Below the pieces are notes generated by a model, which saw only the letters and a program-made list of their open reading frames with translations, searched no databases and was not told the DNA's origin. Both the position numbers and the translations under genes were made by a program. A stretch of DNA of 64,000 bases, from the IMG/VR virus record IMGVR_UViG_3300040781_000091, positions 1 through 64,000 of that record; one strand, written 5' to 3'. The first letter of the stretch is position 1; every line of letters starts with the position of its first letter. This DNA comes from a virus. This document shows, piece by piece, positions 1 to 62,829 of the stretch.

Positions 1-1178
1 CCACCGCCCATTCCAAATGCAATATTGCTGATGCTCCACTTGCTCCGAAGCATAAGAGAAACAATTGCTTTTACATCTTCGATGTCGATGCCATCGCCCT
101 GGATAACTCGCACATTATTCAGAACCTTATAACCCGATTTGTTTACAGTATAACCAAACACCTTGCCGAGCTCGCGTACCACTTGCACAGGAGTCTGCAC
201 AGGATCACCACTGTCCGGACGAAATACCCAGGTGGCTCCGCTTGCATCTAATCGATCTTTAAACTTCGGTGCAATTTTACGCACCCAGTTTACCCAGTCG
301 TAGCTATCAATGACAGTCGCAAAGATTGCGCCAGGTTTTGCGTAAGCATCGAACATCTGCGTAATCAGTTGTTCTTCGCCTTCGCGGCCATGCATGGTAG
401 TTGTGCTATGTTCGCTTGCAGGGATACTGAAAGAACTCATCTCACAATTGTAACCAATATTCGCTGCAAGAACAGCAAGAACAGTGTCACTTCCGAGAAA
501 AGAAACTAAGTGGCCGGCGCCAGCGAAAGCGGCTCCTTCGCTCGAAGAAATACCACGGCTACCAAAGTCGTGTAGCTTGAAAGGAATTTCTGCATAGGCA
601 TCGTCTGAGGATCGTTTCAGACCGTCGAGGATTACTTCGCGGATGGCATAGCTCTCTGTAGCAACAGTCGTCGGCGACCATACGCGGACTAATTTAGTTT
701 CGAAGTAGCTAACCAACGAGAACAGACGCTCGTCATCTACTGTGCTTTCCACGGTAATCAACACATTCTTAACGGGAATGAGCAAGCCTTCCTCGGCTGC
801 TCGTATACGAATAGGAAACCACCCGTCGTACTCGTCGACTACTGCGCGAAGTGCAACTTCGAGGTCATCGGTGTGATTACCCATAAAATGTGCTGCTTCG
901 AATGCAACAATGTTGTTCACTTGTTCGTGTGTTAATTGCTGGAGAAAAAATTCTTTGATCAAGAGTTGAAGACCAAAGAACAAAATAGTGTCGTGTTTGC
1001 CGCCACGACTCTCGATGTAAGATACCATTCTCTTGGCACCTTTCGGGTACTGGGCGTGGTGAGTCATTTTATAGGAATCGGTATCGGCGACAGTTCCATA
1101 CTGCTCACGGATAGTTGCCATAATTCCCATTGGATTGAATTTCATCTTCGGTACCGTTTTTACTTTTTGTGCTTTCAT
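1..1178 (-). CDS. nadV: Nicotinamide phosphoribosyltransferase, C-terminus off window
   Basis: Joins nicotinamide and PRPP to make nicotinamide mononucleotide (NMN), the first step of NAD salvage. The frame is open from an ATG at 1178 to the left edge (392 codons), so roughly the last 100 residues of this ~490-residue family are missing. Family motifs seen in order are DTDSYKMTHH near residue 40, the SYIESRGG stretch, HDFGSRGISSSEGA, SIPASEHSTT, RPDSGDP and VIQGDGI. GAGGAG lies within a hairpin just before the ATG. A sigma70-type promoter sits about 60 bases upstream. The NMN adenylyltransferase at 5849-6928 would complete the route to NAD. Confidence 0.95.
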   Translation of the reverse strand, partial: MKAQKVKTVPKMKFNPMGIMATIREQYGTVADTDSYKMTHHAQYPKGAKRMVSYIESRGGKHDTILFFGLQLLIKEFFLQQLTHEQVNNIVAFEAAHFMGNHTDDLEVALRAVVDEYDGWFPIRIRAAEEGLLIPVKNVLITVESTVDDERLFSLVSYFETKLVRVWSPTTVATESYAIREVILDGLKRSSDDAYAEIPFKLHDFGSRGISSSEGAAFAGAGHLVSFLGSDTVLAVLAANIGYNCEMSSFSIPASEHSTTTMHGREGEEQLITQMFDAYAKPGAIFATVIDSYDWVNWVRKIAPKFKDRLDASGATWVFRPDSGDPVQTPVQVVRELGKVFGYTVNKSGYKVLNNVRVIQGDGIDIEDVKAIVSLMLRSKWSISNIAFGMGG

Positions 1179-1195
1179 AATTGAGCTCCTCAATT
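1179..1195 (-). promoter_or_regulatory. RBS hairpin of nadV
   Basis: On the minus strand the bases before the start codon read AATTGAG-GAG-CTCAATT-ATG. This is a perfect 7-bp stem with a 3-base loop, and the Shine-Dalgarno GAGGAG spans the 5' arm and loop. The same element with a compensated base pair precedes the NMN adenylyltransferase gene at 6929-6946. Confidence 0.6.
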
Positions 1196-1239
1196 TTAAC
1201 ATGCCTGTGTCTTTCGCAGGACTTCTTGTGTTGTTGTTT

Positions 1240-1267
1240 ATTATAACACCATTGTTATAAATGTCAA
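1240..1267 (-). promoter_or_regulatory. Sigma70-type promoter for nadV
   Basis: Minus strand TTGACA (1267-1262), 16-bp spacer, TATAAT (1245-1240), with GTGT just before the -10. It overlaps the end of the purA-like gene and leaves a leader of about 55 bases before nadV. Confidence 0.75.
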
Positions 1268-2391
1268 CTATTTCTTGCTGGGCCAAACGTAGTGGTTATA
1301 TCGTCTGTACCGACAGCATCTGCCACTCTATGGGCAATTTTAGAATAGTTGGCGCCGCATAGTGTGTCTTGGTCGCAGTGAGTTAACACTGCTTTCTTTT
1401 TGTAATCAAACCATGTAAAATACGCCTCGTCGACCATTACATCTCGCTTCATACGCTCGTAATCGAGTGGAGCATATCTTAACGTTTCTTGGAATTCATT
1501 CGGAACGTTTGTATCGTCCTTGAATCCGGGATTAGGCACCTCACCAGGCAACGGCCCGGCGCCGTGTCGAGTTAGGTAGGTTCGAGTAACATAATGAACA
1601 TTAATGTCGGCCTCTGTGCCCTCTAGAAGCATAGCTGGATTTTCTAAGCCAGTACTCGATCGTGTTACAAACGGAAAGTCCTCGCTACGTTGCCCGATAC
1701 GCAAGCCTTGCGCTCCTTCCATTACTATGTTAGTGAATGCAGACATAGCAACCGTGTCTTCCTTCACACCCACATTCATAATAAAGTCAGTAGCATCGCG
1801 TTGAAATATTTCCTGAGCATCTGCAAGAACGGTCAGATTAGGATCTATGCTTAATTCTTCTAACCTCTCCGGCAAATAATTGTTTTCGATCTCTTTGAGC
1901 TTCCAGATCATCTCTTCGGTTTCTTGTAAATCTGCTACAGTAAGAGAATAGCCTCTCTCATGTCGTTCGATTGTTTCGCCTATACCTAAACCACAGCTAC
2001 CGTGTCGTTCTTTTCCTCGGGCACGTTCTATGGCCTGATTAATGAACACATCGTACGGTGTAGTAACAGGACAGTTAGGATCGACGTAGACCCTGGGGAG
2101 ACCGGCTGACAATTTTCCGTACAGATCGAGTGCCTCTCTCCAGAACATAATCGGATTTACTATAAAGAAGCGACTCAGAATAGTTGGAAAACTATCGATG
2201 GTGCCGGCACCGAAGTGATGAAACACATGCCGTCTGCCGTCTGGGAGAACAACAGTGTGTCCTGCTTGGGCGCCACCGTTAAATCTCACAACAGCAGTTC
2301 CTTTGCCTCGTTCGTGTGCTAACCTCTCGGTAGTTGCACCCTTACCTTCGTCGCCGTAGTTAAGTCCGATTACGATATCTACGTTCTGCAT
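1264..2391 (-). CDS. purA: Adenylosuccinate synthetase-like protein (PurA/PurZ family)
   Basis: PurA joins IMP and aspartate using GTP to form adenylosuccinate, the committed step to AMP. Visible motifs are the N-terminal phosphate loop NYGDEGKG (residues ~11-18), FNGGAQAGHTVV, HHFGAGTI and the late TRHGAGPLPGE. At 375 residues it is shorter than the ~430-residue bacterial enzyme and closer to compact archaeal and phage forms. The second lysine of the usual GDEGKGK is replaced by alanine. The aspartate of GDEGKG, reported as replaced in the phage diaminopurine enzyme PurZ, is retained, so PurA-like activity is more likely. PurZ activity cannot be excluded by eye. The SD is AAGAGGAATAGG before the ATG. 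Confidence 0.85.
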   Translation of the reverse strand: MQNVDIVIGLNYGDEGKGATTERLAHERGKGTAVVRFNGGAQAGHTVVLPDGRRHVFHHFGAGTIDSFPTILSRFFIVNPIMFWREALDLYGKLSAGLPRVYVDPNCPVTTPYDVFINQAIERARGKERHGSCGLGIGETIERHERGYSLTVADLQETEEMIWKLKEIENNYLPERLEELSIDPNLTVLADAQEIFQRDATDFIMNVGVKEDTVAMSAFTNIVMEGAQGLRIGQRSEDFPFVTRSSTGLENPAMLLEGTEADINVHYVTRTYLTRHGAGPLPGEVPNPGFKDDTNVPNEFQETLRYAPLDYERMKRDVMVDEAYFTWFDYKKKAVLTHCDQDTLCGANYSKIAHRVADAVGTDDITTTFGPARNS

Positions 2392-2405
2392 TCCTATTCC
2401 TCTTG

Positions 2406-3290
2406 TTATTGCCCTGCTCCGTACAGTGCGTACTCGACTGCTTTCTTAGCTCCTGCGCCCTGAGCAGCAGATATAGCATCCTCAGGATCCATTCCTTCGT
2501 TGACCTGAATCACAGCAGTAATAACTTCACTAATGTACTTGTGATCGTTTAGAAAGATTGCTTTCTTTCCTAACACCCTAGTCCAGTTCTTGCGAACCAT
2601 TGCACCGGAGTGCTGAAAGTAGTGTCCTTCTTCAACTACTACGTGAAACACATTGTAGCGTTCTTGCGCTTCTTTCAGATACTCGTCTGCCGTCATATCT
2701 GTCTGGCTGTTGATTCCCATGCTTTCTTTAATCAACTCACGGCTCGCAGTGCGCGGAGGAAGTTCATCACCGATAGTAAACAAGTATCCTTTCTTCCCTC
2801 GCTTGTCAAAGCAATCAATCTTTGTCTTACGGGCAGCGAAAGCCCAAGGTAGGTCATAGCTTTCATAGCTGTTACCACCCCCGCCACCTTCCAGCCACAG
2901 TTCGGTCAACTGATCAGCAATACGTATGTCTGCTTCAAACTGTGTTACCTGTAGTGGCGCACGGTCACACTGAATGTCTCCGATTGCCATCATCATTAAA
3001 TGTGGATCAGTGACTGGCTTAGTGTCTATAATAGACTCAACTAGTGTGCCCAGGCCGTTCTTTGCAATGTGTTCTGCAATAAAGCCCATCGATCCCGTTA
3101 CGTCGAGACCCACAATAATAGCGGTAGACTCTGGATTCTCGTCCGAGTCTACCGACTCTCGAACTGTGATATAACGCGGATCAAACTCTTTGTTAATGCT
3201 CCGCTTTTGGAATACCTGTTCTCGGCTCTTGCCGCTGTAACTAGATGCTCTGGTACTGTATGCTGATCTATCCCATGTTGCATTTCCCAT
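2406..3290 (-). CDS. von Willebrand factor A (vWA) domain protein
   Basis: A 294-residue protein. After a ~55-residue polar N-terminus comes a vWA-type fold with the metal-site motif D63-V-T65-G-S67-M, followed by an IGD element (MAIGDIQCD) and a glycine run (EGGGGGNS) before SYDLPWAF. vWA proteins bind partners through a coordinated Mg or Mn ion and often work with an AAA+ ATPase, but none lies next to this gene. It starts after a good GGAG site and sits just downstream of the Met-rich protein, so the two are probably co-translated and may interact. Specific role unknown. Confidence 0.75.
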   Translation of the reverse strand: MGNATWDRSAYSTRASSYSGKSREQVFQKRSINKEFDPRYITVRESVDSDENPESTAIIVGLDVTGSMGFIAEHIAKNGLGTLVESIIDTKPVTDPHLMMMAIGDIQCDRAPLQVTQFEADIRIADQLTELWLEGGGGGNSYESYDLPWAFAARKTKIDCFDKRGKKGYLFTIGDELPPRTASRELIKESMGINSQTDMTADEYLKEAQERYNVFHVVVEEGHYFQHSGAMVRKNWTRVLGKKAIFLNDHKYISEVITAVIQVNEGMDPEDAISAAQGAGAKKAVEYALYGAGQ

Positions 3291-3310
3291 TTTACTTCTC
3301 CTTTATTATT

Positions 3311-4024
3311 TTAATTGTTGTCAAAAAAGCCAGACATGTTGCCTTTGCCTTTGCCGTCTTTCATCATGCTCATCATCATCATCATTGGCATCATGTTTTG
3401 CATACCCATGGCGTTCGAGCCGTCACCGTTTGCGCCGAGCTGACTCATAAGCATCATTGGCATGATCTTCTCGAAGTCCATGTCACCGCCCATCATCATC
3501 ATTGGCATTAACATGCCTTGCATATTGCTAAGACCTGCTTTACCATCGGGCAGCATATTCATCAAGCTACGCAACACCATTACGCCACTGTCGAACCCAA
3601 GCATAGAAACCTTGGGTGGAGTCCAGGTATTGCTGACGCCGCCCGGAGTCATCATCTTGAAACGCTTAACCTCGCCTTGCACTACGGTCGCTGGCTCACC
3701 TTCGACAGTCGAAGGCATGGTAGTAGATGCTCCACGCACCACTTCCACTACCCAGCCCTTGAGACTATTGCCCTGGTAGATCAGGTCACCAACTGCAACG
3801 GAATTTAGCGGGGTGTTCTGTGCAAACGCAGGCACTGGCATTCCGAATTGATCCATCAAGTTAATTGCTACTTGTGCATCTTCGCCTTCGCCTTCGATTG
3901 TCACGATGCCGTCGGCAGTCTGAACTCCTACACGGCCAGTGAACATATCCCACACCACGTTGTCAACCTGGCGGAAGAATTGGTTCATCATTTTCTTGCT
4001 AATGTTATTCATATTCATATTCAT
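3311..4024 (-). CDS. Unknown protein with methionine-rich C-terminus
   Basis: A 237-residue protein of unknown function. Residues ~1-150 look folded, including a GDLIYQGNSLKGWVVEVV stretch like a small beta barrel. The last ~80 residues are strikingly rich in methionine, glycine and asparagine, with runs such as PMMMMMSMM and LMPMMMMGGDM. The start is the first ATG of an MNMNMN series, because GGAG lies 9 bases upstream. It lies directly upstream of the vWA gene. A role as flexible oligomerising or client-binding tail is speculation. Confidence 0.7.
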   Translation of the reverse strand: MNMNMNNISKKMMNQFFRQVDNVVWDMFTGRVGVQTADGIVTIEGEGEDAQVAINLMDQFGMPVPAFAQNTPLNSVAVGDLIYQGNSLKGWVVEVVRGASTTMPSTVEGEPATVVQGEVKRFKMMTPGGVSNTWTPPKVSMLGFDSGVMVLRSLMNMLPDGKAGLSNMQGMLMPMMMMGGDMDFEKIMPMMLMSQLGANGDGSNAMGMQNMMPMMMMMSMMKDGKGKGNMSGFFDNN

Positions 4025-4265
4025 TTTCTTTTACTCCTTCTTCGGTTCGTCGTTCTTTGTATTCACCACCGAAAGTTAATACAAAGTTGTGGGCATCATC
4101 TTCGCACTCAAACTCGACGCCCCTTTCTGATCCAATTGCTCGATCTCTCCAGCCACCGGAATCGAATACATGATCACCTCGCAAATTGCTGTCCAGCCAA
4201 TCTTGTACGTCATGGCGGCGAATAGTTTTTACAAAGTGCTTAAACCTAATTGCTAGTGTTTTCAT
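4005..4265 (-). CDS. Hypothetical small protein
   Basis: An 86-residue protein beginning MKTLAIRFKHF, chosen because AGAGGAG precedes this ATG and it overlaps the upstream stop as ATGA. It contains an SGGWRDRAIGSERGVEFEC stretch and ends in a highly charged tail (KENEYEYE). It overlaps the Met-rich gene by 20 bases. Function not recognised. Confidence 0.6.
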   Translation of the reverse strand: MKTLAIRFKHFVKTIRRHDVQDWLDSNLRGDHVFDSGGWRDRAIGSERGVEFECEDDAHNFVLTFGGEYKERRTEEGVKENEYEYE

Positions 4266-4447
4266 TTCTGTTTCTCCTCTAGCACTGCTCTTAACGCTGC
4301 GATCTCTGCATTTAGACACGCCATCTCTGCTTGTATCTGTTCTCTGGCATATGCCTTGCCTGCTTCGAAATATGCATCTTTTAGAGCTTCTAGACTATCT
4401 TTTACATTCTTCTCTATTACGATGCGCTCTTCGTCGAGCTTGCTCAT
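4262..4447 (-). CDS. Small coiled-coil protein
   Basis: A 61-residue, almost wholly helical protein with heptad-like spacing of Leu, Ile and Ala (for example NAEIAALRAVLEEKQ at the C-terminus). It overlaps both neighbours by ATGA-type junctions, so it is translated as part of the operon from 6928 down to 2406. Function unknown; probably a dimer or helical bundle. Confidence 0.6.
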   Translation of the reverse strand: MSKLDEERIVIEKNVKDSLEALKDAYFEAGKAYAREQIQAEMACLNAEIAALRAVLEEKQK

Positions 4448-4881
4448 AATTCCTCCATCGCTGTTCCAAACCTTGCGGGCTCGCTGCCTGGCAAAGGTTC
4501 ACGAATTTGGTCAACGTCGTCCTGCCTTCTCAACTCAACTAACTTGTGTACGTTCATGTGAGGGCAAAAGATCATTTCGCCCTGAAACTTAAAGCGTTCC
4601 TCTAGCTCGTGCATCGTTGCAGCCTTTGCAGCATGCCATGCAGTTCGAACTACTTCGCTGTCACACATTGTATCCTGTAGTGGCCAAATACGACAGAACT
4701 GGCGCTCTACTTTTCTCATCCACGGTAGCTTGTCAGCCGACTCGTTATCAAGTGCGTTGAACTGTATCTGCAAGGAATAGTCGCCGTTGCGTTCACGGAT
4801 GACAAATTCAAAGTCTCCACACTCTACTTGCGACAACAATGCGCGAAAGGTGTCTGCATTCTGTAATTTTTTATCGGCCAT
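4444..4881 (-). CDS. Hypothetical protein
   Basis: A 145-residue protein starting MADKKLQNADTF, with GGAG in the proper place. It has mixed alpha/beta character and a central WHAAKAATMHELEERF helix. No catalytic motif was recognised. It overlaps the genes on both sides. Confidence 0.6.
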   Translation of the reverse strand: MADKKLQNADTFRALLSQVECGDFEFVIRERNGDYSLQIQFNALDNESADKLPWMRKVERQFCRIWPLQDTMCDSEVVRTAWHAAKAATMHELEERFKFQGEMIFCPHMNVHKLVELRRQDDVDQIREPLPGSEPARFGTAMEEL

Positions 4882-5326
4882 TTTCTTTCTCCGGGATATC
4901 AACCCACTCCATGTCCAGCCTGTTTATTACGTCTACTGGTATTGCAATTCTACCAGACTTGTTAATATCCCGGTCTGGTGAATACACAATTTGCAAAGTC
5001 AGATCGTCGGTCTGCTGCACGGGATTTGGTTGCGTCCTGTTCTTTATATTCATCTTCGTAATTTTGAAGATAGTTCCTGCCGGAAAAACAACATCGTATC
5101 TAATGTCGGTATTATGGTTCTGACGATGAATTTGTTTTCCAGTTTTGACATCTGTCCTTCCTGCTACATAATACTGTCCGCGTTCTTTCTCGAGTTCGAC
5201 GAACCCTTTTCGCTCTAAAATCTTTTCTTCTGCTGGACTAGCGCCATACCAGGGCGACAGTGACAAGGTACTGTCAGAAACCAACGCCATTGCTACGCCG
5301 ACTTGCGGAATAAATACCTTATTCAT
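4871..5326 (-). CDS. Hypothetical protein
   Basis: A 151-residue protein. The start MNKVFIPQVG is preferred because GGAG lies 7 bases before this ATG; the ATG two codons earlier would be too close to it. The protein is beta-rich with a central VVFPAGTIFKITKMNIK segment. Function not recognised. It overlaps the upstream stop by 8 bases. Confidence 0.55.
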   Translation of the reverse strand: MNKVFIPQVGVAMALVSDSTLSLSPWYGASPAEEKILERKGFVELEKERGQYYVAGRTDVKTGKQIHRQNHNTDIRYDVVFPAGTIFKITKMNIKNRTQPNPVQQTDDLTLQIVYSPDRDINKSGRIAIPVDVINRLDMEWVDIPEKENGR

Positions 5327-5849
5327 CGTCATACTCCATTTGTTCGGTTTCGACATCGTTGTAGATAACGTTGCCGTCCTCGTCGTATAGCGTGTCGTTG
5401 TCTACACCCATATTCTGTAACTGTTTGAACAGCTCGTCAACTGTCTGGCCTTCGTCGGCGAGCCCAAAGTCAATTACAGCATTTCCAGGTAAAGAAAAGT
5501 CACCGATCTTCCTTAATTCTCGTAGGATGTGAACATGACATGCACAGTTGTACAAATGACGATCACGATCAGTATCTAACTTTTCAATATCGCCGATGTA
5601 TGGGCCGGACACCATTAGGGCAATAAATGCCAGTGTTGACGGCAATGTAAAAACATCGAGGTGCATAGGATTGTAAACGGAAACCTTGTCAATGTGGTTG
5701 TAAGCAATCGGCCCCCAATAGTCAGTGTCTTCGACAAATTCCATATACGGGAGGACATCGAACTTGCCGGGGTATTGCTCACACAGTTTAACAATCGCTT
5801 TGTCGATTGCATCTTGGTCGATCGGTTTTGTGGGATCTGTTTGTTCCAT
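5319..5849 (-). CDS. Hypothetical acidic protein
   Basis: A 176-residue protein with a helical middle region (STLAFIALMVSGPYIGDIE) and a very acidic C-terminal tail (TLYDEDGNVIYNDVE). Its ATG overlaps the stop codon of the NMN adenylyltransferase/Nudix gene, so translation is likely coupled. Function not recognised. Confidence 0.6.
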   Translation of the reverse strand: MEQTDPTKPIDQDAIDKAIVKLCEQYPGKFDVLPYMEFVEDTDYWGPIAYNHIDKVSVYNPMHLDVFTLPSTLAFIALMVSGPYIGDIEKLDTDRDRHLYNCACHVHILRELRKIGDFSLPGNAVIDFGLADEGQTVDELFKQLQNMGVDNDTLYDEDGNVIYNDVETEQMEYDDE

Positions 5850-6928
5850 TACTTTGCCCTCGCAGTTAACATAGAAATAATGCTGTGATGATCTTCGAAC
5901 AGCTGGTCGCTCATCTCAAGTGCCTCGCTCACCGGAAACCACTTTGCTGCCTCGGCGTCGTCCATCCCTTTTACCTTCGGCAGTTTGCCATCGGGTGGAC
6001 CGGGCAACTCGATAAGAAACGCATTGGTGATAGTTCGCCCTCGCAGGCTACGGTCGGGGTGATCGAAAACCTGCTGATGAGTAATATTTGCCTCGAGCAC
6101 AGGTACCGGCACCTTTACCGCTGTCTCTTCTTTAAGCTCACGGATCATGCCCTGGCGATGCGTTTCTTTCTGATTAAGATACCCGCCGGGCAGAGCCCAT
6201 AGTCCTTTTCCTGGTGCAGACTTGCGCTTAATTAAAAGCACATGGCCGCCCTGAAGAAGAACAGCATCAACCGTACAGAAAGTAACCGGATAGGGTGCAG
6301 CTCTCCATTGCTCTTTGTAACGTTGGATGAAGTTGTACTCTTCGAGTGTATGCTCGAACTCCGGGGAACCGAAGTAGTGCTCAGTCATCCATTGATTTGT
6401 CGGTTCGTGCAGTGCGCCGGCCACAAGTCGATACTGACGATTAAACATCAGGGTGCGTATTTGAGTAGCATCAATTGGGCGCTCGCCCATTTCGACGAAC
6501 TTGTCAGCGTTAACGAAATCGTAGGAAGGAAACCACTTCAGGTAGTAGGTAGTGTGGTCTTTATCGTGACCGACCAAACAGACTTTTGCACCGGTACCGT
6601 GCAGACCCATTTGGTGACAGTTGTCCTGGATGGTCTGTTGCACCTGCTTGATCCACTTGTTATCTTCGTAAAAGTAATCGCGCAGAGGAGCAAACCACAA
6701 CCTTTGATCGGTGTCGTCCTCGAAGTATTGGGGAAGTGCGTTAGTGATCATTTCTTCGCGTTCTTCGTATGTGAAGGGATTGCGAGGATCACGGGCCTGG
6801 AATGCGCTGCCAATTAACACCAAAACATTATCTGCTTGTCTAAATGCTTCGGTAATTAAGGCGTCGTGGCCCAAGTGAAAGGGTTGGAATCGTCCGATGA
6901 CGACGGCAAGTTCATATTTCTTTGGCAT
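5849..6928 (-). CDS. nadM: Bifunctional NMN adenylyltransferase / Nudix hydrolase
   Basis: A 359-residue fusion. Residues 1-~190 are a nucleotidyltransferase of the NadM type that adenylates NMN to NAD: GRFQPFHLGH (12-21), GSAFQARDPRNPFT near 40-53. Residues ~215-355 are a Nudix hydrolase with the box starting at G249 (E255, R263, E264, E267, E268); its usual last glycine is alanine (A270). The longer frame starts at a TTG inside the ribosome site; the ATG at 6928 fits GAGGAG. It completes NAD salvage with nadV and shares that gene's RBS hairpin. The Nudix half may hydrolyse ADP-ribose or another nucleotide (inference from related fusions). Confidence 0.93.
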   Translation of the reverse strand: MPKKYELAVVIGRFQPFHLGHDALITEAFRQADNVLVLIGSAFQARDPRNPFTYEEREEMITNALPQYFEDDTDQRLWFAPLRDYFYEDNKWIKQVQQTIQDNCHQMGLHGTGAKVCLVGHDKDHTTYYLKWFPSYDFVNADKFVEMGERPIDATQIRTLMFNRQYRLVAGALHEPTNQWMTEHYFGSPEFEHTLEEYNFIQRYKEQWRAAPYPVTFCTVDAVLLQGGHVLLIKRKSAPGKGLWALPGGYLNQKETHRQGMIRELKEETAVKVPVPVLEANITHQQVFDHPDRSLRGRTITNAFLIELPGPPDGKLPKVKGMDDAEAAKWFPVSEALEMSDQLFEDHHSIISMLTARAK

Positions 6929-6946
6929 TATTGAGCTCCTCAATAA
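6929..6946 (-). promoter_or_regulatory. RBS hairpin of nadM
   Basis: Minus strand TATTGAG-GAG-CTCAATA immediately before ATG: a 7-bp stem, 8 if the A of ATG is paired. GAGGAG lies in the arm and loop. The outer pair is T-A here and A-T in the nadV copy (1179-1195), which supports pairing. Confidence 0.6.
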
Positions 6947-6977
6947 AATTTGGGTGACAAGTCTATCTCGTCAAAGT

Positions 6978-6985
6978 TATTTATC
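6978..6985 (-). promoter_or_regulatory. Late promoter (GATAAATA) before nadM
   Basis: Minus strand GATAAATA, one base from the T4 late consensus TATAAATA, about 50 bases before the nadM start. It lies downstream of the sigma70-type promoter of the same gene. Confidence 0.45.
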
Positions 6986-6994
6986 TATGTGCTT

Positions 6995-7023
6995 ATAATA
7001 ACACCAGATAATTGATTTGTCAA
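6995..7023 (-). promoter_or_regulatory. Sigma70-type promoter for nadM operon
   Basis: Minus strand TTGACA (7023-7018), 17-bp spacer ending GGTGT, TATTAT (7000-6995). It resembles the nadV promoter and gives a leader of about 60 bases. Confidence 0.65.
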
Positions 7024-9212: not shown

Positions 9213-10448
9213 TTACCCCTTTACACACACAACCTGTTTGAGCGTATGAACAATCTCAACTAGGTCTTCTTGCGCCTTCATTACGGCATCGATATCCTTA
9301 TATGCCTTTGGAGACTCGTCGATTACACCGATGTCCTTACGACACTCGACACCCGCCGTTGACTTCTCGTGGTCGTCTAGTGTAAGAACACGCTTCGCTT
9401 CCGAGCGCGACATAACTCGTCCTGCGCCGTGAGAACACGAGCAGAAAGAATCTGCATTACCGAGGCCACGCACAATAAAGGACTTCGCACCCATAGATCC
9501 AGGAATAATGCCAAGGTCTCCTACGCGAGCCCGAACTGCACCCTTGCGAGTAACATGTACGTTAGCACCAAAGTGGTGCTCGGTCGACACATAATTGTGA
9601 TGACAGTTGATCGCCTCTTGGGTGATTGTAAACGCTGGCAACGTAGAGCGCAATGCTGTCAACACCAGTTCCATCATGACCACACGGTTGTGCATCGCAT
9701 AACCCTGGGCCCACTCGACTGCTTCTACATAGTTCTCGTATTGCTCCGAACCATCTACTAAGTATGACAAATCACGGTCAGGCAAAGAAATAAAGTGTCG
9801 CTCCATTTCCTTCTTAGCAGTTGCAATAAAGTGGCGGCCGATCATATTACCTGGGCCACGAGAACCCGAGTGCAATACAACCCATACGTCGTTGTTCTCG
9901 TCTAAGCACAATTCGATGAAATGGTTACCTCCACCCAACGAACCTATTTGGCGATACAACTTTGCGTCTGGCTCTTTTGCAAGCGTTTCGATCACCGGAG
10001 ATTTCGCGACGATACGCTCCCAGCCTCGACGTAAGTCTCGGTTAGCATTGTCTAGCAATTGTGTTGTGTTACGATGCGCTTTGTGAGACAACCGCTGCTC
10101 GTTATGCTCGTCTTGACCAACAGGGACCATACGCTCGATTTCATCACGCACAAGTGCCAGGGACTCTGGCAAGTCTTCTGCAGTCAACGACAATCTAACA
10201 GCATTCATTCCGCAGCCGATATCAACACCAACTGCTGCTGGTATGATAGCGCCTTTGGTTGCAATTACAGAGCCTACCGTTGCGCCGAGTCCTAAGTGGA
10301 CGTCAGGCATTACTGCAACGTGCTGATGTATAAACGGCATAGATGCAATATTCCGCAACTGATCGAGAGCCTGGGATTCCACAGGGACTCCACGTGTCCA
10401 CATTTTGATTAGTGCGTTGTTTGATTTTACTACATCATAGTTTGCCAT
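9213..10448 (-). CDS. rtcB: RtcB-type RNA ligase
   Basis: A 411-residue GTP-dependent ligase that joins RNA ends carrying 2',3'-cyclic or 3'-phosphate to 5'-OH ends, as produced by tRNA-cutting toxins. Metal-site residues are seen in VGVDIGCGM (D76, C79), GGGNHFIEL (~173-181), HSGSRG and CHHNYVS, and the guanylylated histidine is in SHGAGR (H340). The length matches the bacterial enzyme (~408). It heads an operon driven by a strong sigma70-type promoter at 10478-10506. In a phage it could repair tRNAs cut by host anticodon nucleases (inference). Confidence 0.95.
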   Translation of the reverse strand: MANYDVVKSNNALIKMWTRGVPVESQALDQLRNIASMPFIHQHVAVMPDVHLGLGATVGSVIATKGAIIPAAVGVDIGCGMNAVRLSLTAEDLPESLALVRDEIERMVPVGQDEHNEQRLSHKAHRNTTQLLDNANRDLRRGWERIVAKSPVIETLAKEPDAKLYRQIGSLGGGNHFIELCLDENNDVWVVLHSGSRGPGNMIGRHFIATAKKEMERHFISLPDRDLSYLVDGSEQYENYVEAVEWAQGYAMHNRVVMMELVLTALRSTLPAFTITQEAINCHHNYVSTEHHFGANVHVTRKGAVRARVGDLGIIPGSMGAKSFIVRGLGNADSFCSCSHGAGRVMSRSEAKRVLTLDDHEKSTAGVECRKDIGVIDESPKAYKDIDAVMKAQEDLVEIVHTLKQVVCVKG

Positions 10449-10967: not shown

Positions 10968-11487
10968 TTAACATTCCCTCATTATAGTTATTATCCATTA
11001 CGTCTAATACTTGTTGCGTAATATCAGAGCCGTCATTGTAAAGTATATTTTCTGCGTTATCGTCTACTGTAATTACAAGACTGAGCTTATTGCGTTTCAT
11101 GACTACCTTAATCGCATAATCTATGTCCTCGCGAATGGCATCTAGTCTAGTTTGATAGTCGGCGTGTATTCTTGAGAAATATTTTTCTCTTTCTTTTAAA
11201 AATCGAAGGCGTAACTTTTCGAATTCTTTTTCTTTTTCTTCTCTAACATTGTCCGGCATCGGTTTAGTGAGTTCCTCTGACAGTGCAATTAATACTCGGG
11301 CAGATGCGTCTAACATATTTGCCGCTGCCTTTTGTTGAGCCTCAATTGGAGTAAGAAGCGCCTGTCCCGCCCATGAATCTTCTACTAATATTTGAGTATT
11401 CACAACTGCGATATTATCAGCATGTGCTAAAGCACCTACTAATAATATTAGTACAAGTGCTAAATTAAAGGTTCGCATAATCTTCAT
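10951..11487 (-). CDS. Skp/OmpH-family periplasmic chaperone-like protein
   Basis: A 178-residue protein with a clear signal peptide: basic MKIMRTFN, a hydrophobic core (LALVLILLVGALA) and a likely cut at AHA/D (23/24). The mature part begins IAVVNTQ, then has a long charged coiled coil (EKEKEFEKLRLRFLKE) and ends VITVDDNAENILYNDGSDITQQVLDVM. This is the Skp layout, where beta strands at both ends flank a long helical hairpin. Skp trimers hold unfolded outer-membrane proteins in the periplasm. The start could also be the ATG three codons later. Confidence 0.75.
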   Translation of the reverse strand: MKIMRTFNLALVLILLVGALAHADNIAVVNTQILVEDSWAGQALLTPIEAQQKAAANMLDASARVLIALSEELTKPMPDNVREEKEKEFEKLRLRFLKEREKYFSRIHADYQTRLDAIREDIDYAIKVVMKRNKLSLVITVDDNAENILYNDGSDITQQVLDVMDNNYNEGMLNGTKN

Positions 11488-12385
11488 CGCTAAACTCTTC
11501 TCCGTTCCATTCGTCGCATTCCAGTTCCCTGGCTTCGGCGATATCGATAATCATACTAGCAAGTAATTGGTGTGCTCTCGTGTCGCCTTCTTGTCCGGCG
11601 TATCCTGGTATTTGCCACTGGCGGTGTGTTTGCTGCATGAATGAATTTAGTACCTCCATCTGTATTGCATTTTCTACAATAGGATATACTTGTTCCTCGG
11701 TTCCTCCCATCTCAATTGCTGCTTTAATAATCACACGAGCATCCATGACACCACAGCTCTTGTTATACATGTTATCGCACAGAGCTAACGAAATGTGATT
11801 ATCGCGGTCGGGATTGTTTCCGAGTGGGTCAGTCCAACGTTTTAAAATATCGTCCGACTCTAGCGATTCTTTCGCCTTTCTATAAAATACCGGATAATCG
11901 TCTATTATGTCTGCAAACGTAGGCTGGTCGCCGTAAGATCCTTCCTTCCACCAGCATGTTAAATGATTTTCCATGATAGTGTCGAACACATCGCGACGAA
12001 CTTGGAGGTGTTTGATTGGAGTTATAATTTTCTTTTGGCCTACAGAAATTTCCGATTTAAGTCGGTCTTGTCTATCGGCAAGCATGATGCTGTCCCAGGT
12101 AAAACTTTCCGGAACTACTTCGTTTTCGTGGTATTGGTTTTCGCCGGCTTCTACTGGCAAACAACGACTAGACAGAGTAGAAATTATAACAGCGAGCATA
12201 GTTCCGCGTTCGTTTTCTACCTGTCCATAATCGTCGTATCTTCCTTCGCTATAAAAAGGAAATGGGGTTAGATATTTGCGCGGATCTTCGTTGCCCGGTA
12301 CTTCGCTTGTAAAGAATGTAACAACTTCGGTGCCAGCAGTAATTGGCAAATTCGATACTGCACATGTTTGATTCCAACTGCCCAT
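11465..12385 (-). CDS. Conserved phage protein of unknown function (GSWNxTC type)
   Basis: A 306-residue protein. The start MGSWNQTCAVSNLPI is chosen because a longer frame would overlap the upstream gene deeply. The N-terminal pattern (GSWN-TC-SNLPI--G) recurs, to my recollection, in hypothetical proteins of several large phages. The middle and end are helical, with an acidic C-terminus (DEWNGEEFSDEDY). No catalytic site was recognised. Confidence 0.6.
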   Translation of the reverse strand: MGSWNQTCAVSNLPITAGTEVVTFFTSEVPGNEDPRKYLTPFPFYSEGRYDDYGQVENERGTMLAVIISTLSSRCLPVEAGENQYHENEVVPESFTWDSIMLADRQDRLKSEISVGQKKIITPIKHLQVRRDVFDTIMENHLTCWWKEGSYGDQPTFADIIDDYPVFYRKAKESLESDDILKRWTDPLGNNPDRDNHISLALCDNMYNKSCGVMDARVIIKAAIEMGGTEEQVYPIVENAIQMEVLNSFMQQTHRQWQIPGYAGQEGDTRAHQLLASMIIDIAEARELECDEWNGEEFSDEDYANL

Positions 12386-12401
12386 AACTCTGCCTCGTTG
12401 T

Positions 12402-12689
12402 TTACCAGTACTCGTTGCCTGCGAGTTTAGCCTTAGTTTCCTGCAAGCTATACTCGTAAAAGATTTTCTCGATCGTGAGCTTTTCGTCTTTGACATCAAC
12501 CGGTACTAGCTCAAAGGTTACTAGCTTGCAACCGTCGTACACATCGCGCCTGGTCTTTTTAAACAGGGCAAGGTGGTTAACCAGCTGTGCTGGTCCTTCC
12601 CAAGACTTGCCTGTCTTGTGAAATCTTGGAAAAGACCCACCCGTAGAAAATAATCCGTCAGATTCTCGTTGTATTTTGTACAGGCGCAT
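12402..12689 (-). CDS. Conserved hypothetical phage protein
   Basis: A 95-residue protein beginning MRLYKIQRESDGLFSTGG with a HKTGKSW stretch. It resembles small hypothetical proteins of large phages that start with similar Y-I-x-R-K-S-D-G-x-F-S patterns (from memory). No function known. Confidence 0.55.
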   Translation of the reverse strand: MRLYKIQRESDGLFSTGGSFPRFHKTGKSWEGPAQLVNHLALFKKTRRDVYDGCKLVTFELVPVDVKDEKLTIEKIFYEYSLQETKAKLAGNEYW

Positions 12690-12693
12690 GTCT

Positions 12694-13182
12694 TTACCTT
12701 GCGTTAGGGGAGTTCTTGATAAGTTCGATCAGCCGGAATTCGAATTCAGTAAATTCTTCGACTGGTGCCTCCGGCGCGTACAGATCGCCCATGAAGTATG
12801 TTCTGGTGCTCTTATCGAAACGATTGTTGGCGCCGTACAACTTCACCCCGGTGTCCCATATGCGGTCAGGAACAACAATAGCAACACAAGTCAGTGCATT
12901 GTTAAGGGCCGGTTCTTCTTCGTGGAAAAATCCCCAGGGCAAATAAACACCATCTGCCGACAGTAGCCACTGTTTGATTTCCTGTAGTTGCGCCTCGGCG
13001 CCACCGTTCTTACAGATCATCGTCTTGTGGTTATTCAGCCACTCGTGAAACACCGTAGTACTTCCCTCGTAGCAAGTAACAGGATACTTAATTGCCATCT
13101 CGCCCAGGGCGTGTGCCGCCTGGATGCCTTGCTGGATACTCGACAGGTAAAAGTTGCCAAATGTGTAAAGTCTGTATTCCAT
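12694..13182 (-). CDS. Possible peptidyl-tRNA hydrolase II-like (PTH2 fold) protein
   Basis: A 162-residue protein. FYLSSIQQGIQAAHALGEMA resembles the PTH2 segment with A-Q-x-A-H-A. After it come WLNNHKTMICKNGG, comparable to W---GQ-K(V/I)--K, and NNALTCVAIVVPDRI, comparable to the conserved T--AIGP strand. PTH2 enzymes release peptides from peptidyl-tRNA. The match is distant and key residues cannot be confirmed by eye. The gene follows a sigma70-type promoter at 13216-13243. Confidence 0.4.
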   Translation of the reverse strand: MEYRLYTFGNFYLSSIQQGIQAAHALGEMAIKYPVTCYEGSTTVFHEWLNNHKTMICKNGGAEAQLQEIKQWLLSADGVYLPWGFFHEEEPALNNALTCVAIVVPDRIWDTGVKLYGANNRFDKSTRTYFMGDLYAPEAPVEEFTEFEFRLIELIKNSPNAR

Positions 13183-14698: not shown

Positions 14699-14716
14699 TT
14701 TTACGTTTCCTTTTTT

Positions 14717-14724
14717 GATAAATA
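14717..14724 (+). promoter_or_regulatory. Late promoter GATAAATA, plus strand
   Basis: GATAAATA ends 5 bases before the ATG of the only plus-strand gene. Initiation 6-7 bases downstream of such an element would place the transcript start at or next to the ATG. No Shine-Dalgarno sequence is visible. Confidence 0.55.
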
Positions 14725-14729
14725 ATGTT

Positions 14730-15113
14730 ATGAAAATTAAAGATATATTAACTGAAAATACTGCGCCACTTATTATGACTGATCAAACTCAGTTCGACGA
14801 AGAGTTTGACACATTCTATAATCCCCAAGCAGACATGATTGCTAATATGAATCGCGACTACTATAAGAAGTATTTTAAAGAATTCTTTACCGACGGCAGT
14901 GTTCCTGTCTTCACAGAAGCCGACAATTATCCTCCCTCCGAAGACGAAGAAGATTGGACTACTAAGCCCAATCCCGAAGCACCACAATCTGCAGGATACC
15001 GCGGACAACAAAATGCTCTACATAGAGCAGGTGTACCACACGATAAAAATGTCGGTGGGTACGACTCTGGTCCGGTTATTCCGCTCACACCTAAAAACCT
15101 AGATACGATATAA
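14730..15113 (+). CDS. Putative capsid-targeted internal protein, only plus-strand gene
   Basis: A 127-residue acidic protein. It begins [13 protein letters not shown], matching the short N-termini of other proteins in this window and ending in LTE/N, an (I/L)xE prohead-protease-like site. The rest is Asp/Glu- and Pro-rich and probably disordered ([17 protein letters not shown]). It has no SD and appears leaderless. It converges on and overlaps the gene at 15091-15411 by 23 bases. It is probably a virion internal protein (inference). Confidence 0.65.
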
Positions 15114-16499: not shown

Positions 16500-17915
16500 T
16501 TAGCTAATACTAAATGCAATCTTATCTTTGGGGCGCGAGGTTGCGTAATAGTTGGAGCCAGCGTTAAATTCTATCTTACCTTTCACTACTGGCGGATACT
16601 TAACATTGAACCTATCAAATACCAAATCATCACCGGATTTTCTCACGTGACTATGTAACTGTATGAAAGAGATTCTTGCAAGTACCTTCTTAAAAAATGT
16701 AGTTGGCTTCATTGCATTTAAGTGTGCAGAAACTAACCGTGCTAGACCTGCCATAGTGTGAAAGCCTGCAGTATACGCAGGGTGATCTAGTTTAGCGTCA
16801 GGGTATGCTTTTAGTAATTTTTTGATATTTTTAGAATTACCTAAATACTCTTTGTCGCCATTCTTAATTAGATAAACAATTTCCTCAGCATCACTACGAT
16901 CAATCATACCATACATCTGACCTAGCTTCAGCGGTCCGCTTAGACTGGTATTTTCGGAGATAATATTAATTGCATCGATAAGTGGCTTATACTTTGCAAG
17001 GAATTGGTCGTCAAACTCGTGTGTGTTTAAAATGTGAACAATAGATTTCAAGCTAGCAGAAACACCACCTTTAGCTTTCGAGCTAATGCCAATTTTATCG
17101 CCACCACCCGATACGAAAGAGTCGACGAGAGGAGTAGATTGTCCGGGTGGAAATGTAATCCACGATAAATCAGTAAAGCTCTTGTCTACTAATAAATCCC
17201 TTTGTGCTCTTTGCCAATCGCCCGTTAATAAATTTGGAGATTTTAATAAAGCAATCGGACCAGCTATCTCACCGATGTATTTCTCGATAACTTGTCTGTA
17301 CTCTGCTGCGCCAGTAACTGGCTCGGAAGTACCGTTGTACACCTGTAATAAGATATTATATATTATCCCCTTTAGCGGTTCTTTTATATTAGACTGCTTG
17401 ACGACTTTTAGAATTCCGGCGGGCGTTAATCTCTTTCCTCCGATTAAATCACTCGGCTTTACTTTTGCAGTCTCTGAGTGTGTTACTTTAGAATCCTTTA
17501 AGGTGAACCCGTATTCGTTTTTAAACTGTGTATTAGTCCATGCGTTGCCGTGTTGACTAACATCCGTCCTTTGCCCATAACGAACAAATGCAACTCTACG
17601 ATTATCTTCTGTTTTCCAGACGGTCATCATAGCCGCCTTATTAGGGCTGTTAGAGAAGTGTAAATCACTCTTGCGGATTCTTAACTGACGTGCTTTTTCT
17701 AAAACTGCGTTTTGTGCTTTTTCGGCCGCAGTTAATGGCTCCGGCTCGTCGGAAGAATCATCTTCAAACGCACCTGAGTCAGGAAAGTTAAAGATTGCCC
17801 AGAGTGTAATTTCTTGTTTTGTTTTAGGATTAACAAAGACTTGGCCAGGGCGAGTCGAGCCTATTCTACTAGCCTCGTCTATACGCCCTGGCGCAAACAG
17901 TTCTACTAACCGCAT
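16500..17915 (-). CDS. Putative virion protein with capsid-targeting-like N-terminus
   Basis: A 471-residue protein. The N-terminus MRLVELFAPGRIDEAS has the M(K/R)-hydrophobic-acidic pattern seen on other small proteins here and an IDE/A site of the (I/L)xE type. No enzymatic motif was recognised in the remaining ~450 residues, which look mainly globular alpha/beta. It could be an injected internal protein (inference). The SD is weak. It follows the acidic gene at 17922. Confidence 0.6.
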   Translation of the reverse strand: MRLVELFAPGRIDEASRIGSTRPGQVFVNPKTKQEITLWAIFNFPDSGAFEDDSSDEPEPLTAAEKAQNAVLEKARQLRIRKSDLHFSNSPNKAAMMTVWKTEDNRRVAFVRYGQRTDVSQHGNAWTNTQFKNEYGFTLKDSKVTHSETAKVKPSDLIGGKRLTPAGILKVVKQSNIKEPLKGIIYNILLQVYNGTSEPVTGAAEYRQVIEKYIGEIAGPIALLKSPNLLTGDWQRAQRDLLVDKSFTDLSWITFPPGQSTPLVDSFVSGGGDKIGISSKAKGGVSASLKSIVHILNTHEFDDQFLAKYKPLIDAINIISENTSLSGPLKLGQMYGMIDRSDAEEIVYLIKNGDKEYLGNSKNIKKLLKAYPDAKLDHPAYTAGFHTMAGLARLVSAHLNAMKPTTFFKKVLARISFIQLHSHVRKSGDDLVFDRFNVKYPPVVKGKIEFNAGSNYYATSRPKDKIAFSIS

Positions 17916-19655: not shown

Positions 19656-20999
19656 TTACTTGATTTTGCTAGAGTGATCTGCTTCTTCTTTATCTTCGCG
19701 CAATTCTACAAAGCGAGGCAAAAACAAGCTATCTACGCCCTGGCGAGATTTGTCCTTGCTTGCAATTCGTTCATTGTACAACACAGTTACTATACGACCC
19801 ATCCATTCTTGGATATTTGCAGTAATCTCATCTCGCAATTCGTCGCTGAATCCACTAATACTAACTTCTAGCATACGATCAGATGATGCACACACAAGAG
19901 AGCCCATTTTATTCTCGTTTTTAGTACCAGGGGTGCCTGGGTTCCAGCCGATTACTTCTAGGTCACAATCATTTTCGGCCTTCATTTTTACAAGGTGCTG
20001 ACTACGCTTATCTTCCCAAGGACTGGTTATGTTCTTGAGCATAATTCCCTCTTCGCCAGCAGCAAGTGCTTCTTCGTAATGCGCCAGGGCCTCGTCGAGG
20101 GATTGCACTATTCTCCACTCTATGAGATGGTACATATCACTTTTCGGAGCATCGTTAATTACTGTCTGTAAATTAGCAAAACGGGTTTTGTACGGAGTAC
20201 TATCTTTAAATTCGAAGAATGCATCGTAATCAATCATATCCCAAATACGCATACGGACCCGGGATGCTTCTGCTTTACTAATTGTTCCCCTTACTGCTTT
20301 GTTAAGGATTCCGTTTCCTTTTTTGCGGGACATAACCGAGCCATCAGTTTCGAGAACAACAAGCTCACCGTCGAAGACAACACTCGATCCCACCGTGTTC
20401 CCAAGAGCAATAAAGTCGACATCAAAACAGTCGTACAAATCAACCAACTTACCAGAGCGGCCCCGTATAGTGATACTCTCCCCATTTCCATCGTTTGCTT
20501 GATAAATGACATTAACACGCATCCCATCGGCCTTAAGTTGACTGTAAGCAGGCCATTGTATTTTTTGAATAGTTTTGTCGTCGTACCCCTTTCCTAGCAA
20601 GCACGGATAGGTAGGAACTAATCCTTTCCATACTTTATTTACCGTGGATTCTTGTACCCCACATCGCAGATCTTTTTTAATAATGCGCTCTGCAACAACA
20701 GCGGAGTCCGGGTCCATATTCGATAGTAGTTCGGTGAGAAGTTTGATTGCGGCATTGCCGGTGACTTTGCGTTCGGAGAATTGGTCTAGGTGAGAGATGA
20801 ACCACGCAACGTCTTTGGTGCCGGTTGCAGTGTATTCTGGAATTTTTCTAATATAAAACTGAATGAACGGGCTGAGTGCGTGATAGATTGCATCCTGCAA
20901 CTGTGTATTAGTTGCATTGTCCTTTAGGATTTCAATCTTGTCATTACGGCCGGAAGTATTTTCCAGCAAGTTCATTACACTATATACTTCGCAAGTCAT
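19656..20999 (-). CDS. ATP-dependent DNA ligase
   Basis: A 447-residue ligase of the T4 gp30 type. The adenylated lysine is K156 in QLKADGMRVNV. Later nucleotidyltransferase motifs are FDGELVV, EGIMLKN and HLVKMK, followed by an OB-fold region (GWNPGTPGTKNENKMGSL). A helical N-terminal domain of ~140 residues precedes the catalytic core, as in T4. It seals nicks during replication and recombination. It overlaps the preceding gene by 20 bases; AAAGGA precedes the ATG. Confidence 0.95.
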   Translation of the reverse strand: MTCEVYSVMNLLENTSGRNDKIEILKDNATNTQLQDAIYHALSPFIQFYIRKIPEYTATGTKDVAWFISHLDQFSERKVTGNAAIKLLTELLSNMDPDSAVVAERIIKKDLRCGVQESTVNKVWKGLVPTYPCLLGKGYDDKTIQKIQWPAYSQLKADGMRVNVIYQANDGNGESITIRGRSGKLVDLYDCFDVDFIALGNTVGSSVVFDGELVVLETDGSVMSRKKGNGILNKAVRGTISKAEASRVRMRIWDMIDYDAFFEFKDSTPYKTRFANLQTVINDAPKSDMYHLIEWRIVQSLDEALAHYEEALAAGEEGIMLKNITSPWEDKRSQHLVKMKAENDCDLEVIGWNPGTPGTKNENKMGSLVCASSDRMLEVSISGFSDELRDEITANIQEWMGRIVTVLYNERIASKDKSRQGVDSLFLPRFVELREDKEEADHSSKIK

Positions 21000-21622: not shown

Positions 21623-21906
21623 TAGTGTATTACCCTCGCAATTTCGTATCCGAGATCAGCAAACAACTCTGAATTCTGTTCATATATCTCTAGGGCCTGC
21701 ATCAACGATTCGTTATCGTCTGGGTCAAACTCAGGAAGAATAATAACCCGAACAATATCATATCCTGCAAACACATCGTCAAAAATTTCAGATCGACTGT
21801 GTTGTGATCCCCGAGGAACAAAGACAGCAATAAAATCATCAAAGCTAATTTTGTCGTCTGCGGGTATAAGGACACAGTTTTCATCAAAAGTAATTATATC
21901 GTTCAT
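21622..21906 (-). CDS. Hypothetical acidic protein
   Basis: A 94-residue acidic alpha/beta protein (DDFIAVFVPRGSQHSRSEIFD; EFDPDDNESLMQALE). It is coupled to ftsH by an ATGA overlap. Function unknown; an FtsH adaptor is conceivable from position alone. Confidence 0.5.
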   Translation of the reverse strand: MNDIITFDENCVLIPADDKISFDDFIAVFVPRGSQHSRSEIFDDVFAGYDIVRVIILPEFDPDDNESLMQALEIYEQNSELFADLGYEIARVIH

Positions 21907-23684
21907 TTCTCATCCATAATCTGCGAAATAATATCTTCGCCGATTGTTTCGTGTTCAATTAGTGCTGCGGCCATGGCGTCTAATTTGTCACGATTAGCCT
22001 CTAGTATTCTCGTCGCTTGCTTGTAATTTTTCTCCAAAATTTCAGCAATTTGTGACTCGACTTGACCCAAGGTTATACTTGATAGCACACTAGATCCTAC
22101 TTTATCTAATTTACTAAAATTCATGACACCTAGTTCGCTGAATCCCCATTCGGTTACCATCTTACGCGCAATCTCAGTTGCCCTAGCAATATCACTGCTC
22201 GCGCCGGTGGTAACTTTATTAGAACCATACTTCAGCTCTTCTGCAATGCGCCCTCCGAACAAGGAGCAGATAGAACTGTTTAGATATTCGAGGCTATGAC
22301 TGTAGCGTTCCTCTTCTGGTAAAAATTGCGTCACACCCAGGGCGCGGCCCCGGGGAATGATACTGACCTTGTAAACAGGATCATGGTCCGGTGAGAGCCT
22401 ACCGACGATAGCATGACCGGCTTCGTGGTAAGCAGTTTGCTCTAGATCTAGTGGCTTCATTTCCTTAGGACTTTCAGCACCCATCATTACCTTATCCTTA
22501 GACCTTTCTAAATCGGATATAGTAACCTCTGACCGCTGTTCACGTGCAACAAAAATTGCAGCTTCGTTGATTAGCTTTTTAAGTTCGGCGCCGGAGAAGC
22601 CGGGTGTTCCTTTTGCAATTTGCTGCACATCTACAAGGCTAACATCTCGGTTAATTTTCTGAAGGTGTAAATTGAGAATCTTTTCTCTGGCCTGTACGTC
22701 TGGTAGGCTAATATTAATAATACGATCAAATCTACCAGGACGCATCAATGCAGGATCAAGTACATCGGGTCGGTTAGTTGCAGCAATTACCAACACCCCA
22801 TGATCATCTTCGAATCCATCCATCTCTACAAGGAGCTGGTTAAGAGTTTGATCTTGTTCGCGTCCAGAGCCGCTAGCAGCATCTCCGCGAGATCTTCCTA
22901 GGGCATCGATCTCGTCGATAAAAATGATAGAAGGTGCTACCGACTTGGCCTGGGTGAATAAGCTACGCACCCTGCCGGCACCTACACCCACAAACATCTC
23001 AACAAATTCAGACCCAGATACTTCAAAAAACGGAACGCCGGCTTCGCCTGCAATTGCTCTTGCTAGTAGTGTCTTACCGGTTCCCGGCTCTCCGGCTAAT
23101 AGTATTCCTTTAGGAAATTCTGCTTTTGCTTTACGGTAGTCCTCGGGTCTTTTTAGAAAGTCAATTACTTCCTTTGCTTCGTCGTGTTCGCCGGGGTTTG
23201 AAATTACATCGCTAAGGCGTGTTTTATTCTTCTCTGGGTCAATTAAACGGGCTTTTGTCTTTCCGAAGCTAAGAATGCCGTCGCCGTTTTTCTTACCTAA
23301 CCGGACAATAAAGAACACTAGTATAAGCACAGGAATTACACCGAACATTAGCATCCCGAACCAACCAATTGGCTGTGGCGGCAGTTCTGCATTTACTAAT
23401 GCACCGTGAGAAATCGCCTTGTCTACTATATACGCAGGGTCGCCTGCAGACACGGTACGGTATAATTCGGAGTTACCTTTTAGAGTATAAACAATTGTCC
23501 GTTCGTCTGACTCGATGTCAATTTCGTCAACCAACTGAACATTAGTAACGAGGTGCGAATAAGGAGAATTGTTGTAGTCCGGGCCGAAGAACAATGGTTT
23601 GATAATAAACAACCAAGCTAGGCCGCCGATGGCACATAACCAAACTATACCCACAAGGCCATTGCGTGTTTTTGATTCACTCAT
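21903..23684 (-). CDS. ftsH: FtsH membrane AAA+ zinc protease
   Basis: A complete 593-residue FtsH. Two membrane helices (~12-30 and ~108-128) flank a short outer domain. The AAA+ module has Walker A GEPGTGKT (198-205), pore segment [14 protein letters not shown], Walker B IIFIDEID (253-260) and [20 protein letters not shown]. The peptidase has HEAGH (H420, H424) and the probable third zinc ligand D498 in SSDIARAT. It extracts and degrades membrane and soluble proteins. Phage FtsH could remove host membrane or photosystem/respiratory proteins, or regulators; the target is unknown. Confidence 0.97.
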
Positions 23685-62820: not shown

Positions 62821-62829
62821 AGTGTGTCC

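Follow-up and report, generated by a model that had tools for sequence, protein, structure and literature searches.

A candidate NAD+ restoration locus of a phage, in which a NAMPT/NadM salvage pair encloses a conserved Met-rich/VWA/PurA-like module

Depletion of NAD+ is a central anti-phage weapon of bacteria, and the catalogue of phage answers to it is still young. NARP2-type pairs of Nampt and Nmnat are a published phage theme against NAD depletion. The NARP1 operon, for its part, may carry a nested signal-degrading enzyme, RyDEP (PMC13232231). The present study concerns the virus record IMGVR_UViG_3300040781_000091, a linear fragment of 74,178 bp, the first 64,000 bases of which constitute the stretch analyzed here (the window). 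An earlier note on this stretch had described a two-enzyme salvage route consisting of NAMPT and a bifunctional NMN adenylyltransferase/Nudix protein (NadM/Nudix); the pair proved to be real, but the account was incomplete, overlooking the genes for Met-rich, VWA, and PurA-like proteins that lie in between. We propose with moderate confidence that this region is an early-expressed phage NAD+ restoration locus, in which the known salvage pair encloses a NAD-linked Met-rich/VWA/PurA-like module not described before. It is the embedded module that is new here, the flagged pair itself being of an already known type.

A viral scan with a single protein returned one relative only, and the module loci (numbered with the prefix L) were collected by profile scans, which gave a sample of 80 viral and 80 bacterial loci. 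The PurA-like gene adjoined the VWA gene in 77/80 viral and 79/80 bacterial loci, and the module genes of the viral loci were all on one strand. The Met-rich/VWA/PurA-like arrangement was shown to recur in identical order and strand in unrelated phages, including Vibrio phage Va1 (L004), Rhizobium phage RHph_TM3_3_6 (L005), and a gut phage (L006), and the spread of the VWA and PurA-like genes over phages in tblastn searches was nearly equal (188/189 for Mycobacterium, 10/10 for Rhizobium, and 6/6 for Vibrio). The exact order of the window, NadM-Met-VWA-PurA-NAMPT, was found in L010, L058, and L079. As for the gene preceding VWA, it encoded the Met-rich protein in 16 viral loci and a DnaJ/kinase-like protein in 32 viral and 65 bacterial loci; the two never co-occurred within the viral set, and in loci having neither of them the upstream genes showed no common family. 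The DnaJ/kinase-like protein usually possesses the HPD motif, and its kinase catalytic loop seems degenerate in most copies. In the phylogeny, which consists of one quick tree, the PurA-like proteins of the module separated from three housekeeping PurA proteins (SH-aLRT about 94-95), the window copy clustered with those of L010, L011, L013, L009, and Va1 (support 98), and the Met-type phages were spread over several clades.

Comparative genomics tied this module to NAD metabolism, and we regard the link as well supported. Among 50 viral records, 18 of which carry NAMPT, the NAMPT gene was located within 4 kb of the VWA gene in 9/18, as compared with 1.9 expected from uniform placement with shared ancestry ignored (P about 5e-6). 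Counts worked out by hand placed a full-length NadM gene within the same distance in 7/14 records, and thymidylate synthase, a metabolic gene that served as the control, in 0/13. The linkage of NAMPT with the module was seen in at least three separate clades of the tree. NrtR is a regulator family known to sense ADP-ribose. In 39/80 bacterial loci, the module had an NrtR-type regulator, composed of a Nudix domain and the NrtR winged helix (PF21906), no more than 600 bp away, and in whole bacterial genomes NrtR was located within 7.5 kb of the module in 17 of the 20 NrtR-bearing genomes, with 0.08 expected. Some bacterial copies were flanked also by genes for NAMPT, microbial PARG, NadM, and NadE.

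Several observations weigh against this interpretation. The P value for proximity takes no account of common descent, not every NrtR-family regulator senses ADP-ribose, and NrtR was found beside the phage copies of the module in 0/80 loci. Most viral loci hold the module without NAD genes inside 8 kb, the C-terminus of NAMPT in the present phage lies beyond the contig edge, and four isolate or assembled phages (Va1, RHph_TM3_3_6, the gut phage MT835469, and Alice) carry the module with no NAMPT in their records, from which it follows that the module does not need NAMPT. The occurrence of the module without NAMPT in other phages would also suit an ordinary NARP2, in which NAMPT and NadM alone matter, the three module genes having no relation to the pair and serving, for example, general nucleotide supply. 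Such pairs are indeed common in phages (NAMPT matched 1899 phage records and NadM/Nudix 466), and the present phage also encodes ribonucleotide reductase, thymidylate synthase, and dihydrofolate reductase. The proximity of NAMPT to the module, far over expectation with a clean negative control, the recurrence of the exact gene order, and the adjacency of bacterial copies to NrtR nevertheless make this explanation a rather unlikely one.

In 22/22 bacterial genomes a housekeeping PurA was additionally present, scoring 526-648 bits as compared with 125-178 for the module copy; the PurA-like enzyme is a paralogue separate from it. Alignment with 151 relatives demonstrated that D13, K16, E221, and Q224 were kept in 151/151, and H41 and T239 in 150/151; the PurA-type chemical core is thus functional-looking. 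The window copy likewise keeps Asp13, Lys16, His41, and Gln224, with its IMP-phosphate and Asp-loop residues swapped. Across the family, N38 was replaced by Gln (146/151), T128 by Ser (150/151), T129 by Cys (129/151), and V273 by His (151/151); R131 had become aliphatic, R143, K140, and R147 were not kept, R303 was lost, and the TTGRxR Asp loop had given way to an N...Q loop with invariant N and Q and one Arg retained. We take the roles of these residues in contacting the IMP phosphate, ribose, aspartate, and GTP to be those of E. coli PurA. Because Asp333 was mostly retained, a GTP-type donor is suggested. The retention of D13, K16, H41, Q224, and mostly of this GTP-recognition residue would be consistent with a true adenylosuccinate synthetase acting on IMP, which would raise AMP/ATP for NAD+ synthesis and DNA replication; considering the changes at N38, T129, R131, R143, R303, and the TTG loop, the invariant His at position 273, and the PurA that host genomes already own, this is unlikely.

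Present annotations assign the paralogue to plain purine synthesis or call it a Z-genome gene. Its best PHROG label (phrog_1211) is '2-aminooxy adenylosuccinate synthetase', and the phage homologues of adenylosuccinate synthetase include PurZ, so that a PurZ or PurZ0 for 2-aminoadenine, with the phage DNA modified, had to be considered. Phage PurZ and PurZ0 possess Ser at position 13 in 100% (PMC12884076), as does PurZ of phiVC8, whereas Asp occupies this position in the window copy and in 151/151 relatives. The NCBIfam PurZ score was 50.8 bits against a cut-off of 300, the quick tree set the module group apart from phiVC8 PurZ (with a very long branch), and the module genes occur also in ordinary bacterial chromosomes. 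The Z-genome identity was rejected on account of Asp13 and the low PurZ score, and what chance it keeps is very slight. The NCBIfam purA models, too, gave 110-115 bits against cut-offs of 395-402; by sequence the enzyme is neither PurZ nor housekeeping PurA.

The partner proteins were assessed by structural modeling. The VWA protein was modeled by AlphaFold2 with a pLDDT of 92.3 and resembled the integrin beta-I domain (Z 15.7) and VWA domains (Z ~15), and its MIDAS residues D63, T65, S67, and D175 were invariant among relatives; it is predicted to adopt a VWA Rossmann fold with MIDAS. A profile sequence search of this protein against the PDB gave no match. The model of the Met-rich protein, of low confidence (mean pLDDT 62.7), showed an N-terminal part rich in beta structure followed by a helical tail rich in Met, and the fold had no match in the PDB better than E 0.68. 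PADLOC assigned no defense family to the PurA-like, VWA, or Met-rich proteins, and for the kinase gp246 of Mycobacterium phage Alice it returned kinase-domain matches only. VWA proteins are part of the TerF theme (PMC7824862), a DnaJ/kinase-like protein precedes VWA in many loci, and a PRTase_3 gene lies near the module in the Rhizobium phage; these features could point to a Ter-like or chaperone-type stress system in which the PurA-like enzyme makes a nucleoside-type signal. Among the recurrent bacterial neighbors, however, no TerC, TerD, or TelA was noticed (no profile search being made for them) and the recurrent neighbor was NrtR, and we hold such a system to be improbable.

As for the pair itself, searches with Pfam, PHROGs, and NCBIfam profiles and comparison with the PDB confirmed that both enzymes are present with clear motifs, as the earlier note had stated. 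NAMPT matched NAMPT_N (E=8e-21) and NAPRTase (E=1e-30) of Pfam and phrog_448 (E=1e-102), its closest solved structure being the Xanthomonas NAMPT 7yqo (E=2e-99). NadM/Nudix, a full-length protein containing the motif GRFQPFHLGH, matched phrog_395 (E=1e-83), the NCBIfam bifunctional NMNAT/Nudix model (E=1e-112, 376 bits, slightly below the 397 cut-off), and, over the full length, the structure of the bifunctional NMN adenylyltransferase/Nudix hydrolase 2qjo (E=2e-79). The NAMPT gene runs off the first base of the record, leaving the last ~80-100 residues outside the contig; no NAMPT tail was noticed when the far contig end was inspected, and the gene is therefore simply cut. Across the ~390 visible residues the catalytic motifs SDT, PASEHS (with the catalytic His), RPDSG, and VIQGDG were found, and the visible C-terminal stretch reads ...RPDSGDP...VIQGDGID...IAFGMGG. 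In Namat, the third residue of the clamp GSX..X..TRD is aromatic (PMC12774641); in the present enzyme it is Gly (FGMGG), and the second clamp aromatic falls off the contig, so that at the single visible clamp position the enzyme looks like Nampt rather than Namat. An Adps-type PRPP-synthetase domain was sought with PF13793, and no match was obtained within the 74-kb fragment of this incomplete genome. The route from nicotinamide and PRPP to NMN and then to NAD+, which had been named from the start, is what would be expected from a complete NMNAT/Nudix enzyme and a NAMPT with its visible catalytic residues intact. By likeness to 2qjo, the Nudix domain is predicted to cleave ADP-ribose, and judging from published systems it is reasonable to suppose that the pair may counter TIR or SIR2 defense.

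The two genes lie on the same strand and are separated by 4.6 kb and seven open reading frames (ORFs). Each stands behind its own strong sigma70-type promoter, and here again the note was right, both promoters being of the extended -10 type (Table 1). Sites matching at least 11 of 12 positions were concentrated on the coding strand, with 12 on the minus strand of the window (at 1267, 7023, 10506, 13243, and 23942, for example) and 1 on the plus strand, as compared with about 1 expected per strand. The NadM and NAMPT genes further have in common a leader of the form ATTGAGGAGCTCAAT[A/T]ATG. This shared leader, ATTGAGGAGCTCAATWATG, fixes the start codons of both genes, the true starts being at 6928 (NadM) and 1178 (NAMPT) instead of at upstream TTG codons, and it also suggests their co-expression.

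Table 1. Position of the salvage pair, the enclosed genes, and the expression signals in the window.
Feature	Coordinates	Strand	Basis
NAMPT (nadV), 3' end lost at contig start	3..1178	-	Pfam, PHROGs, NCBIfam, PDB; start codon from shared leader
NAMPT ribosome-binding leader TTGAGGAGCTCAATTATG, nearly identical to NadM leader	1176..1195	-	Leader comparison
Extended -10 sigma70 promoter TTGACA-16-TATAAT with TG, 12/12, before NAMPT, at 3' end of PurA-like gene	1240..1267	-	Motif scan
PurA-like (adenylosuccinate synthetase-like, AdSS-like) ligase, 375 aa, phrog_1211	1264..2391	-	Pfam, PHROGs, NCBIfam, residue alignment
VWA (MIDAS) protein, 294 aa, phrog_2971	2406..3290	-	PHROGs, AlphaFold2 model, fold comparison
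Met-rich protein, 237 aa, conserved phage family	3311..4024	-	Relatives and AlphaFold2 model
Four small ORFs without assigned function, NadM to Met-rich gene	4005-4265, 4444-4902, 4871-5356, 5319-5849	-	
Possible fifth small ORF in the same stretch (4005..5849)	4262-4447	-	
Bifunctional NMN adenylyltransferase/Nudix (ADP-ribose pyrophosphatase type), complete	5849..6928	-	Pfam, PHROGs, NCBIfam, PDB; start from leader
Extended -10 sigma70 promoter TTGACA-17-TATTAT with TG, 11/12, before NadM	6995..7023	-	Motif scan

On the proposed NAD+ restoration locus, two layers can be envisaged. In the first, NAMPT would join nicotinamide and PRPP into NMN, which the NadM domain would convert with ATP to NAD+, and the Nudix domain would cleave ADP-ribose, such that NAD+ lost to host NADases would be rebuilt. 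In the second, the Met-rich protein, the VWA/MIDAS protein, and the non-canonical PurA-family ligase would form one module common to phages and bacteria, which in bacteria, beside NrtR-type regulators, would probably be induced upon NAD+ breakdown. The substrate of the PurA-like enzyme would be a 6-oxopurine compound different from plain IMP, activated at O6 at the expense of GTP and then aminated, so that inosine-type nucleotides arising from NAD+- or ATP-attacking responses (dIMP/dITP or ITP, for example) would be returned towards adenine nucleotides, and the VWA protein may serve as a Mg2+-dependent scaffold. A dITP signal triggers NAD+ depletion in Kongming defense, and RADAR makes ITP (PMC12774641, PMC12948488); together with the nested enzyme of NARP1, these systems fit the idea of an inosine compound. 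The substrate, the reaction direction, complex formation, and the anti-defense role are what we infer and not what we observed, and the specific inosine-type substrate, to which genomic context points, is at best a doubtful candidate.

In its general form, the proposal is that the cassette of a Met-rich or DnaJ/kinase-like gene followed by VWA and PurA-like genes is a NAD/ADP-ribose-responsive pathway of bacteria and phages, that its ligase represents a new PurA subfamily aminating a non-IMP 6-oxopurine, and that phages put the cassette into NAD+ restoration operons, where it would remove an immune signal or restore nucleotides that have been deaminated. We advance this tentatively, as something short of an even chance. 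A literature search, which left most subscription papers outside its coverage, found no paper connecting an AdSS-like protein, VWA, and NrtR or NAD. The presence of an NrtR-linked module in or next to phage NAD+ salvage operons suggests that the contest over NAD+ and bacterial NAD+ homeostasis include a further step, for which the PurA paralogue would be responsible.

Some further features deserve mention. Va1 (L004) has a NADAR gene (PF08719, E=1e-48; 5239-5889) upstream of the module and, downstream of it, a gene (11384-12892) whose product reads like a TROVE/Ro VWA protein. In RHph_TM3_3_6 (L005), a ComF-like phosphoribosyltransferase gene (PRTase_3, PF15610; 2566-3420) and an adjoining HAD-like gene lie 4-5 kb upstream of the module. 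In the VWA protein gp247 of phage Alice (L007, 3930-5714), the GD motif is separated from the C-terminal part by a ~270-residue insertion with intein-like sequence (LAGVYDGEG). The sequence L002 encodes a protein with a weak RNA_ligase-domain match (PF09414, 25.5 bits, barely below the cut-off; 2955-4433, minus strand), as well as RtcB (9213-10448) and an ATP-dependent DNA ligase (19656-20999). The minus strand of the window carries an unusual proteolysis set identified with Pfam, comprising ClpS (27005-27331), a ClpX-like AAA+ protein with a C4 zinc finger (28217-29446), and an FtsH-like AAA+ M41 protease (21903-23684). Finally, many ORFs possess an N-terminus like M[RK][ILF]x[DE]IxxE (14715-15113 on the plus strand, 16500-17915, 44827-45150, and 60959-63962 in the window, and 1226-2119 in L002), reminiscent of a capsid-targeting leader removed by prohead protease.

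Comparison with the described systems places the locus as follows. Like NARP2, it is a phage locus with both enzymes, each behind a strong promoter of the same type; unlike the usual NARP2, where adjacency is customary but not strictly defining, its two genes are non-adjacent, with the Met-rich, VWA, and PurA-like genes in the seven-ORF interval. In outline it resembles NARP1 with nested RyDEP (PMC13232231), in which an extra enzyme is likewise nested in a NAD+ reconstitution operon; here, however, no Adps domain was found, and the nested gene encodes a putative PurA-like ligase with VWA and Met-rich partners. Like PurZ/PurZ0, the enzyme is a PurA-fold paralogue carried by a phage, but it retains Asp13 and, in most copies, the GTP site of the Asp333 type, is linked to VWA and NAD genes, and is found also in bacterial chromosomes. 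With housekeeping PurA (E. coli 1ade) it shares the fold and the chemical core D13, K16, H41, and Q224, and it differs in the family-wide replacement of contacts to the IMP 5'-phosphate, ribose, and aspartate and in being an extra paralogue in all of the 22 genomes. The bacterial module resembles NrtR-regulated NAD genes (Nudix plus winged-helix repressor) in standing beside NrtR and at times NAMPT, NadM, NadE, or PARG, whereas the phage copies stand without NrtR, and the literature searched yielded no description of its genes as members of NrtR regulons.

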